From Bacteroidota bacterium (GTDB lineage Bacteria > Bacteroidota > Bacteroidia > Flavobacteriales_F > PHOS-HE28): a stretch of DNA of 64,000 nt. The notes under the pieces are model-generated. The model was not told where the DNA came from and did no database searches. It saw only the letters and a list, made by a program, of their open reading frames with translations. This document shows, piece by piece, positions 15,622 to 18,439 of the stretch. The DNA lies in assembly GCA_018267155.1 (NCBI GenBank), contig JAFDZE010000041.1, positions 1-64,000 of the forward strand. The letters are read 5' to 3'. Each line of letters begins with the position of its first letter. Position 1 is the stretch's first letter. Made by a program: the position numbers and the translations under genes.

Positions 15622-16185
15622 CTATTTCGTATTGAACGAGTTCATGGCGTGCCCGATGCCCATGAGCCCGAAATCGAGCACGGCTTGGCAACACACGGTG
15701 ATCCGTTGGCCCAGGGCAGCGGCCTCTTCCTTGTTCCATTGGCTGAGCACATGGTCGGCTTGCCTGCCGCGCGGAAAATCACTTCCGATACCGAAGCGCA
15801 ACCGCGGAAAGACCTCGGTACCGATGGTGACGATGATGCTGGTGAGCCCGTTATGACCGCCCGCACTCCCGCTGGCCCGCAAGCGGATCTTGCCGAAGGG
15901 CAGCGCCAGGTCATCCGTGATCACCAGGGTCCGTTCGCTGATGATGTTCTCCTGCTCCATCCAGTACCGCACGGCCTTGCCACTGAGGTTCATGAAGGTC
16001 TGTGGTTTCAAGCAGATGAAGGTCTTTCCCTTGTGGCGGAATTCGGCACGGTCCGCGTACCGGTCAGGGGCGAACGCGCAACCCTGTTTCTCCGCCAGGG
16101 CGTCCAGCACGGCGAATCCGATGTTGTGGCGGGTGTTGGCGTACTCCGAGCCCGGATTGCCCAGACCGATGATGAGGAACTTCAT
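15622..16185 (-). CDS. pth: Peptidyl-tRNA hydrolase
   Basis: The 187-residue enzyme cleaves peptidyl-tRNA released from stalled ribosomes. The N-terminal signature MKFLIIGLGNPGSEYANTRH contains the catalytic-site Asn and His, and CLKPQTFMNLSG, LVITDDLALPFG and GSAGGHNGLTSI are the other conserved blocks. The length is normal for the family. In many Bacteroidota the order is prs-rplY-pth with short gaps; here a 0.5-kb insert holding a GxxExxY gene separates rplY from pth. Confidence 0.97.
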   Translation of the reverse strand: MKFLIIGLGNPGSEYANTRHNIGFAVLDALAEKQGCAFAPDRYADRAEFRHKGKTFICLKPQTFMNLSGKAVRYWMEQENIISERTLVITDDLALPFGKIRLRASGSAGGHNGLTSIIVTIGTEVFPRLRFGIGSDFPRGRQADHVLSQWNKEEAAALGQRITVCCQAVLDFGLMGIGHAMNSFNTK

Positions 16186-16198
16186 GACTGAGGTTTAT

Positions 16199-16223
16199 CC
16201 ACCGATTTCGCCGATTTCCGCCG
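16199..16223. repeat. Left inverted repeat of the GxxExxY cassette
   Basis: Contains two tandem copies of a 9-base unit (ACCGATTTC, GCCGATTTC) followed by CGCCG. It is the inverted counterpart of 16631-16655. Confidence 0.7.
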
Positions 16224-16238
16224 CTCGCAAGCCATCCA

Positions 16239-16625
16239 CTATGCGGTAAATACCATGCGCTTGATCTGGAGGCTCGGTGTTCCGAAGTTGAGCAGGAGTC
16301 CTCGTTCCAAGCGGGTCGCTTTCAGGTAGTTGATCATGATCGACTCCTCCACACCTGTCATGATCTTCATCGCCTTCAACTCCACCACGATACATCCATA
16401 GCGGATGAAGTCCGCTCTGTAAAAGGTCTGGAGCTTGTGACCGCGATAGAAGATCGGCAGCTGAACCTCCCGTTCGTAGGGCACCCCGGCCAACGCGAAT
16501 TCTGCCGCCAAGGCCTCTTGATACACCGCTTCCAAGAAGCCCGGACCAAGTTCAGAATGGGCGGCCATCGCACAGCCGTTGATGGCATAGGTCTCCGGGT
16601 CGTGGTCATAGGTCATCCCCAACAT
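16239..16625 (-). CDS. GxxExxY protein (PD-(D/E)XK-like family)
   Basis: The 128-residue protein carries the family-naming motif GPGFLEAVYQEAL near residue 28. Later come RADFIRYGCIVVELKAMK, which looks like the D...ExK active site of PD-(D/E)XK nucleases, and NYLKATRLERGLLLNFGTPSLQIKR, the conserved C-terminal block. Function in the cell is not established; nuclease activity is a fold-based inference. The gene starts and stops within 20-30 bp of the cassette's terminal repeats. The chain appears intact and full length. Confidence 0.9.
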   Translation of the reverse strand: MLGMTYDHDPETYAINGCAMAAHSELGPGFLEAVYQEALAAEFALAGVPYEREVQLPIFYRGHKLQTFYRADFIRYGCIVVELKAMKIMTGVEESIMINYLKATRLERGLLLNFGTPSLQIKRMVFTA

Positions 16626-16630
16626 TCAAT

Positions 16631-16655
16631 CGGTGAAAATCGGCGAAATCGGCGG
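16631..16655. repeat. Right inverted repeat of the GxxExxY cassette
   Basis: On the minus strand reads CGCCGATTT CGCCGATTT TCACCG, the inverted partner of 16199-16223. Confidence 0.7.
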
Positions 16656-16671
16656 ACGGTACATGAAGAAA

Positions 16672-16701
16672 AAGGGCCCCCGCGTCTCTGCGGAGGCCCT
16701 T
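16672..16701 (-). terminator. Rho-independent terminator after rplY
   Basis: AAGGGCC and GGCCCTT form a strong stem; on the minus strand it is followed by TTTTTCTT. It lies 17 bp past the rplY stop and just outside the GxxExxY cassette, so pth may need its own promoter. Confidence 0.85.
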
Positions 16702-16718
16702 CCAAAGCATCGGTAAGA

Positions 16719-17393
16719 TCACTTCTTGGCGGCGGGCTTCGCGGCTTCGGCCTTCTTGGCATCGGCAGCAGGGGCGGCGGCGGCAGGAGCGGCAGCACCC
16801 GCAGCAGGAGCGGCGGTGCCCGCAGCGGCGGTCGGTGCGACCTCCTCTTCCTTCTTGGCCATCTTCACGCTGGCCACCACATCCGTAAGGCGTTCAGCGA
16901 TGGTGATGCCCGGGAATTTCAGGTCGCTCACGTGGATGCTGTGGTTCAGTTCCAGGTTCGTGATATCGACCTCCAAGGACTCGGGCAGGGAGCCGGGCAA
17001 GCCCTTCACGCGCACCTTGCGCAGCGGCTGGCTCAGGATGCCGCCCTTCTTCACGCCGACACTCTGGCCTTTCAACTTCACGGCCAGGCTCACGCGGGCT
17101 TCTTTGTTCTCGCTCATCTCCACGAAGTCGCAGTGGATGATCGCGTCGGTCACGGGATGGAACTGCTTCTCGTGCAACAGGGCCATGCGCTTGTCGCCCT
17201 CGATGTCGAGTTCGATGCGGTACGCATCGGGCGTGAAAACGAGTTTGCGCAGCGCCATTTCATCCACGCTGAAATGCACGGCGCCGGCACCGCCGTACAT
17301 CACGCAGGGTACGCGCTTGGCGCGGCGGAGCGCGGCGGCGCCCTTGGTTCCTTCGCTGGCGCGCTTCGTGGCGGTGAGTTCTACCTTCTTCAT
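16719..17393 (-). CDS. rplY: 50S ribosomal protein L25 (Ctc form)
   Basis: The 224-residue protein has the N-terminal L25 5S-rRNA-binding domain (1-95, with KKVELTATKRASEGTKGAA and LLHEKQFHPVTDAIIHCDF). A Ctc-type beta domain follows (about 96-190, with GILSQPLRKVRVKGLPGSLP). The tail of about 40 residues is rich in Ala, Pro and Lys, low in complexity and typical of GC-rich Bacteroidota L25. It binds 5S rRNA in the large subunit. It lies downstream of prs with an 89-bp gap containing a hairpin, and is followed by a strong terminator. Confidence 0.96.
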   Translation of the reverse strand: MKKVELTATKRASEGTKGAAALRRAKRVPCVMYGGAGAVHFSVDEMALRKLVFTPDAYRIELDIEGDKRMALLHEKQFHPVTDAIIHCDFVEMSENKEARVSLAVKLKGQSVGVKKGGILSQPLRKVRVKGLPGSLPESLEVDITNLELNHSIHVSDLKFPGITIAERLTDVVASVKMAKKEEEVAPTAAAGTAAPAAGAAAPAAAAPAADAKKAEAAKPAAKK

Positions 17394-17482: not shown

Positions 17483-18439
17483 TTATGCGATGATGAAGTG
17501 GCTGCTGATGCTCTCATGGGCGCGCATGCGCTGGATCACGCTGCCGAAGAGCGGAGCCACCGGGAGTACCTGGATCTTGGTGGTCTTTTCCATCTTCTGG
17601 GTGCTGATGGGAATAGTGTCGGTAACGATGAGCGAGGTGAGCGCGCTGCGCTCGATCCGATCGCACGCCTCGCCGCTGAGCACGGGATGCGTGCAGATGG
17701 CCCGGACGCTGTTGGCTCCCTGCTCCAGCATCATGTCGGCGGCCTTGGTAAGGGTGCCGGCCGTGTCGCACATGTCGTCCACGAGCATCACGTCCTTGCC
17801 CTTCACCTCACCGATCACCGTCATCTTCTCGATCTGGTTGGCCACCTTTCGCTGCTTGTAGCAGATGGCGATGTCCACCCCGAGGTGCTTGCCGTAGGCG
17901 TTCGCGCGCTTGGTACCGCCCGTGTCCGGTGCTACCATCAGAAGGTTCGGCAGGTTCAGGCTCTTGATGTACGGAACGAAGATGCTGCTGGCGAACAGAT
18001 GGTCCACCGGCACCTCGAAGAAGCCCTGGATCTGGTCGGCGTGCAGGTCCATGGTCATGATGCGGTCCACGCCGGCGGCGGTGAGCATGTTGGCCACCAG
18101 CTTCGCACCGATGCTCACCCGGGGCTTGTCCTTGCGGTCCTGCCGGGCGAAGCCGAAGTAGGGCATCACCGCCACGATCCGCTTGGCGCTCGCCCGCTTG
18201 GCGGCGTCCACCATCATCAGCAGTTCGAACAGGTTGTCGCTGGGCGGGAATGTGCTCTGCACGATGTACACCACATCGCCCCGCACCGTCTCCTCGAAAC
18301 TGGGCTGGAACTCCCCGTCGCTGAAGCGGTTGAGCACCACATTGCCCACGCGTTCACCACAGGCCGCAGCGATGCTTTCGGCCAAGTACTTCGAGGCGGT
18401 ACCACCGAAGATCTTGATGGTTTCCTGGAGGGTGGACAT
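17483..18439 (-). CDS. prs: Ribose-phosphate pyrophosphokinase (PRPP synthetase)
   Basis: The 318-residue enzyme transfers pyrophosphate from ATP to ribose-5-phosphate, giving PRPP for nucleotide, His and Trp synthesis. Conserved blocks are FSDGEFQPSFEETVRG, MPYFGFARQDRKDKPR (ATP loop), MDLHADQIQGFFEVPVDHL and the PRPP-binding loop VMLVDDMCDTAGTL. The length is normal. It is the first gene of the prs-rplY-pth cluster. A TACATTCG box 57 bp upstream on the same strand is a likely promoter. Confidence 0.98.
   Translation of the reverse strand: MSTLQETIKIFGGTASKYLAESIAAACGERVGNVVLNRFSDGEFQPSFEETVRGDVVYIVQSTFPPSDNLFELLMMVDAAKRASAKRIVAVMPYFGFARQDRKDKPRVSIGAKLVANMLTAAGVDRIMTMDLHADQIQGFFEVPVDHLFASSIFVPYIKSLNLPNLLMVAPDTGGTKRANAYGKHLGVDIAICYKQRKVANQIEKMTVIGEVKGKDVMLVDDMCDTAGTLTKAADMMLEQGANSVRAICTHPVLSGEACDRIERSALTSLIVTDTIPISTQKMEKTTKIQVLPVAPLFGSVIQRMRAHESISSHFIIA

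Follow-up and report, generated by a model that had tools for sequence, protein, structure and literature searches.

A GxxExxY gene between inverted tandem arrays at the rplY-pth junction as a putative REPIN/RAYT-like mobile element

Introduction

The closest described counterparts of the locus analyzed here are the REP/RAYT systems (TnpA-REP, REPINs; PMC3116915, PMC2817692), which, like the elements discussed below, are mostly chromosomal and consist of a gene between short repeats in inverted orientation, with gene-less inverted doublets in intergenic DNA, in which the ends are conserved and the spacer is variable, and with coevolution between the repeat type and the protein. Unlike in REP/RAYT, the protein of the present cassette belongs to the PD-(D/E)XK nucleases (PDDEXK_3) rather than to the HUH/Y1 transposases, the defining enzymes of REP/RAYT; the arms are tandem 9–10-bp units rather than GTAG-tagged REP hairpins; and a single genome can carry up to 20 copies of the GxxExxY gene, the unit types being many.

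Another point of comparison is the intervening sequence (IVS) of 23S rRNA with an S23p ORF (TIGR02436; PMC4990558); that of Coxiella, 428 nt long and described as selfish, has a 28-bp terminal inverted repeat that is cleaved by RNase III. The cassette and the IVS have in common a length of approximately 430–490 bp, one small ORF and inverted repeats capable of pairing in RNA; the cassette, however, is located between rplY and pth, not in rRNA, the GxxExxY protein is unrelated to S23p, and the units are 9 bp long, in contrast to the 7-bp units of the stand-alone TIGR02436 loci that were examined. Insertion sequences and MITEs likewise are units with terminal inverted repeats and one gene that yield copies at new sites and gene-less derivatives, but the cassette has neither a DDE or serine recombinase nor a fixed target duplication and, unlike in MITEs, the loops of the gene-less palindromes are not copies of one another. 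In the openly licensed PMC literature, no association of GxxExxY with inverted arrays or repeats was found, which is weak evidence of absence.

Results and discussion

Organization of the cassette

The window, that is, the entire 64-kb stretch of DNA under study, comes from contig JAFDZE010000041.1 of the 3.33-Mb genome of a Bacteroidota bacterium (GCA_018267155.1). The relevant features are the following.

15622..16185, minus strand: pth, peptidyl-tRNA hydrolase, flanking gene (profile matches)
16198..16656, minus strand: the whole cassette, about 459 bp, 55.8% GC compared with 61.5% for the window
16198..16223, no strand: inverted arm on the pth side (3′ of the gene), TCCACCGATTTCGCCGATTTCCGCCG, about three units of 9–10 bp
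16239..16625, minus strand: GxxExxY gene, 128 aa, PD-(D/E)XK nuclease family, with E32, D72, E82 and K84 intact
16631..16656, no strand: inverted arm on the rplY side (5′ of the gene), which, read inward, is TCCGCCGATTTCGCCGATTTTCACCG
16670..16703, minus strand: rplY terminator, a hairpin and subsequent T tract, close to but outside the cassette
16719..17393, minus strand: rplY, ribosomal protein L25, flanking gene (profile matches)
17483..18439, minus strand: prs, ribose-phosphate diphosphokinase, conserved neighbor (profile matches)

The two arms, 26 nt each, are 88% complementary, are separated by 407 nt and form the only inverted repeat with a score of at least 17 within 700 bp in the entire window; none of the 60 dinucleotide shuffles of the window reached this score, in agreement with the inverted-repeat cassette proposed in an initial sequence-only reading of this DNA. 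The arms had been placed 15–25 bp outside the coding ends; more precisely, the downstream arm is 15 bp past the stop codon, and the upstream arm lies 5 bp away from the first ATG and 14 bp away from the second. CGCCGATTT is found in four copies in the window, against 0.64 expected, three of these at the cassette. The 9-base unit described in the initial reading is present here but represents just one version of the unit that the whole family shares, C(A/G)CNGAT plus 2 nt. Pattern searches, which are the source of all genome-wide repeat counts for this genome, showed that the two arms are the only matches to the tandem 18-mer, even when two mismatches are allowed, across the 3.33 Mb, where the GxxExxY gene also is the only one of its kind. 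Across 124 GxxExxY elements, the median length is 487 bp.

A comparison with Rfam yielded sub-threshold matches only. RNA folding predicts that the arms pair and thereby enclose the entire cassette, as would be expected of an RNA-level element similar to the 23S rRNA IVS, the arms of which pair in the transcript so that RNase III excises the cassette and the insertion is tolerated; the resemblance to the Coxiella IVS (PMC4990558) points in the same direction. However, any inverted arm pair would fold that way, the cassettes are located between protein-coding genes, not in rRNA, and this explanation accounts neither for the copies at new sites nor for the tandem units. We therefore regard it as improbable, while noting that RNA-level cutting could coexist with the mobile-element explanation that we favor below.

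Insertion relative to congeners

The comparison of rplY-pth spacers from related genomes bears out the claim that the cassette interrupts a conserved prs-rplY-pth order: all 43 congener spacers (from 42 genomes) are empty, with lengths of 36–150 bp compared with 533 bp here, and none contains a GxxExxY gene. In the closest relative found (Pth 81% identical), the spacer is 78 bp long. The nearest related GxxExxY proteins in the genus are encoded at three loci without rplY or pth. Thus, the best explanation of these sequence comparisons seems to be that the cassette entered the interval between the rplY terminator and pth once the lineage had split from the sequenced congeners. Another GxxExxY locus (L027) has an empty site in two congeners. 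Divergence of intergenic DNA between congeners leaves none of the available empty sites clean.

The rplY terminator, which the initial reading correctly placed just outside the cassette, was not picked up by a terminator scan and was recovered by folding. The suggestion that the cassette might affect pth expression was not supported: rplY, the GxxExxY gene and pth are all in the same orientation, the cassette is downstream of the terminator, and a terminator-like hairpin is already present in most of the congener rplY-pth spacers that were read, so that the sequence gives no reason to expect a change in pth expression.

At two sites occupied by GxxExxY elements in genome G036, relatives have other palindromic arrays. 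At one of these (L147), gene-less palindromes of 7-bp units are present in two relatives (L351 in G012:C266 and L353 in G044:C17), so that a single intergenic site serves both the 9-bp and the 7-bp array type. Some GxxExxY loci are conserved vertically (L060/L067/L079/L084). At locus L018 (G031:C140), an extra ORF of 243 aa is located between the GxxExxY element and the conserved flank; the congener locus L028 lacks this ORF.

Prevalence of GxxExxY genes with flanking arrays

GxxExxY genes are present in 109 of the 147 relatives, with up to 20 copies per genome, and more than 500 candidate stretches were found across many phyla. The search for arrays around these genes in other genomes, as advised in the initial reading, showed that flanking arrays are the rule: with a score of at least 15 for inverted similarity between the 200-bp flanks, inverted arrays flank 76 of the 107 GxxExxY loci, from about 20 phyla, compared with 0 of the 471 control positions in those loci. 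In copy-rich genomes, the respective numbers are 19 of 25 and 0 of 99. The arms consist of tandem 9–10-bp units, such as CRCAGATTN, CRCAGAGGN, CRCAAAGNN, TACGAAN and CACTAAAN, and their autocorrelation peaks at lag 9. The initial reading held that, were the units widely scattered without the gene, the association would be a matter of chance. Such scattering indeed was found in other genomes (see below), but this does not render the association fortuitous, given the difference between 76 of 107 and 0 of 471 in both-sided flanking. The explanation by chance repeats next to an ordinary hypothetical gene, with which the single copy in the source genome would be compatible, is refuted by these control comparisons along with the shuffles, and we consider its probability negligible. 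That the gene-plus-arrays arrangement recurs in about 20 phyla suggests mobile DNA of a kind that has attracted little attention.

At some GxxExxY loci, no arms could be detected. One such locus is L461 in Sphingomonas parapaucimobilis (NZ_CP155749.1), where the GxxExxY gene is sandwiched between fabD and fabG and is possibly a domesticated copy in an essential operon. Only 8 of the 72,556 plasmid records match GxxExxY, and for several of these the gene content (fab genes, radA) looks like that of a chromosome; no GxxExxY was found in the phage collection. This scarcity on plasmids, together with the lack of phage matches, offers no obvious route of horizontal spread.

Movement of the arms and the gene as one unit

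One genome (G051) contains three pairs of elements at different sites that are 89.6%, 84.8% and 82.8% identical over 483, 513 and 447 bp, respectively. In these pairs, identity begins and ends at the outer arms, and the flanks are unrelated. Identity from outer end to outer end implies that the arms and the gene move as one unit, and mobility of the whole unit thus appears well supported by sequence comparison. A related element in a genome from another family (L153) is 78–80% identical across the element. In the 124 elements, the ends of which are known to within a few base pairs only, there was no excess of fixed-length target-site duplications over permuted flanks. In G051, in the flanks of L152, L166 and L334, a second repeat, GTTACTGTTC(A/G)GG, is located just outside several GxxExxY elements.

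The GxxExxY protein

GxxExxY is a very common but functionally uncharacterized family. By profile comparison, the window gene is a clear member, with 131.4 bits against TIGR04256 (curated cut-off 35, model positions 2–116 of 116) and 118.8 bits against PF13366 (PDDEXK_3; gathering cut-off 22), and no other Pfam match. In the family, E32, D72 and K84 are invariant and E82 is nearly so; together, in the motif D72-x9-E82-x-K84, these residues form the predicted PD-(D/E)XK site. The confident AF2 model of the protein (pLDDT 91.5) produced PD-(D/E)XK nucleases as the top Foldseek matches in the PDB (Cas4 SSO0001, AddB, RecE, MGME1), with TM-scores of only about 0.4–0.5, and phmmer detected no sequence relatives in the PDB. 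The dN/dS values, 0.006–0.22 for GxxExxY genes and 0.076 and 0.11 between copies at different sites, suggest strong purifying selection that extends to the copies at different sites. We know of no stand-alone PD-(D/E)XK nuclease that functions as a transposase.

PD-(D/E)XK enzymes are common in defense, and the resemblance of the predicted fold to Cas4 and AddB is compatible with the cassettes being part of a defense or toxin-antitoxin locus, in which the arms would be modified or self-marking sites. This is highly improbable: no PADLOC defense family matched at E≤1, the phage collection contained nothing, and the unit has a single gene, with no partner within the arms. In PHROGs, matching reached E=0.0015 only.

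Correspondence between the arms and the protein

Several unit types coexist within one genome, and yet the two arms of each element agree: the CGC/CAC fractions of the left and right arms correlate with r=0.87 (0.86 after correction for GC content; 0 of 2000 as high). Mapped onto the GxxExxY protein tree, the unit type requires 29 changes compared with 62 after shuffling (0 of 200 as low), that is, it tracks the protein tree rather than the genome. Relatedness alone could be behind part of this match; the clustering crosses genomes and phyla.

Coevolution of the arm units with the protein, along with the close flanking of the gene by the arms, also is what would be seen if the arrays were operator sites through which a resident, non-mobile gene regulates itself. 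This already disfavored possibility is very unlikely considering the copies with unrelated flanks, the empty congener sites, the presence of arms on both sides of the gene and the gene-less palindromes.

The explanation that we favor as probable is that the cassette is a copy of a widespread REPIN/RAYT-like mobile element with a predicted PD-(D/E)XK nuclease in place of the HUH transposase. As the coevolution suggests, the GxxExxY protein would recognize the units of its own arms, as a duplex, a cruciform or a single-strand hairpin, and might cut there, promoting excision or copying; re-insertion would involve host repair, with repair of cut cruciforms or hairpins being our guess, and the gene-less palindromes would be non-autonomous riders. 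That the cassette was moved by its own nuclease is our inference. Counting against this scheme are the lack of a target-site duplication, the unclean empty sites, the armless loci and the vertically conserved loci, as well as the differing loops of the gene-less palindromes, the want of any known transposase among stand-alone PD-(D/E)XK nucleases and the scarcity of GxxExxY on plasmids and its absence from the phage collection. If the scheme is correct, these elements would be a PD-(D/E)XK counterpart to REP/RAYT and would explain where thousands of intergenic palindromes come from. The sequence evidence links GxxExxY to a specific candidate DNA substrate that can be read from each locus, so its activity is directly testable.

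Gene-less palindromes

Gene-less palindromes of the CACAGAGG type, approximately 70–90 bp long, were identified in 14 of the 45 genomes of the genus (the source genome and 13 of the 44 congeners), compared with no matches to a reversed control pattern in the same 45 genomes. Tandem CRCAGATTNCRCAGATT was detected in 30 of the 34 genomes of other phyla, at up to 152 places in one of these, with no control matches. Such gene-less copies are what a REPIN- or MITE-like family would leave. The arms of the palindromes are conserved and most of the loops differ between copies; hence these are not simple MITE copies. Gene-less doublets of the window's own unit type were not found in the source genome. 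In one CACAGAGG palindrome of the source genome (L298, G000:C72:22404-22474), the loop is another repeat-like sequence, CTCTCCTTGGGAGAGGGGTTGGGGTGAGGGG.

Candidatus Chloroploca (G180, L401–L410) harbors many copies of an approximately 130-bp MITE that has an outer inverted repeat, AGGGCTGATGCAAAGTC, and contains an CGCAGATT palindrome. These multi-copy palindromes were set aside as evidence: the extra outer inverted repeats common to the copies indicate that they ride inside another MITE.

TIGR02436 genes in parallel arrays

Genes of the TIGR02436 family (four-helix-bundle proteins of the 23S rRNA IVP family) are located between inverted arrays at 22 of 30 loci (L169–L198), compared with 0 of 119 controls. 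These arrays have 7-bp units, with autocorrelation at lags 7, 14 and 21.

The presence of an unrelated family in analogous arrays is in line with the main rival of our explanation, namely, that a different enzyme, such as a Y1/HUH TnpA-REP, acts in trans to mobilize the arms and the gene, with GxxExxY being cargo or a regulator. The lack of a target-site duplication and the palindromic arms with variable loops also recall REP/RAYT (PMC3116915). Movement in trans is nevertheless unlikely, given that the unit type tracks the GxxExxY tree and not the genome, the unit period differs by protein family (9 vs 7 bp), and the catalytic residues of GxxExxY are invariant.

The favored explanation, movement by the element's own nuclease, can be extended, although we put this forward tentatively, as a possibility to which we give somewhat less than even chances: GxxExxY proteins might be the dedicated recognition and mobilization nucleases of new, phylum-spanning minimal mobile elements, each clade reading its own 9–10-bp unit, and TIGR02436 four-helix-bundle proteins might independently head a parallel 7-bp class, so that the two together would explain many bacterial short tandem intergenic arrays that have so far lacked an explanation. 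Arrays of the heptamer TAACTGA have been noted in Beggiatoaceae (PMC4679880), and the 7-bp TIGR02436 arrays would bear on the origin of such long-noted repeats. One of the 30 TIGR02436 loci is in the source genome itself (G000:C124:1239-1559).
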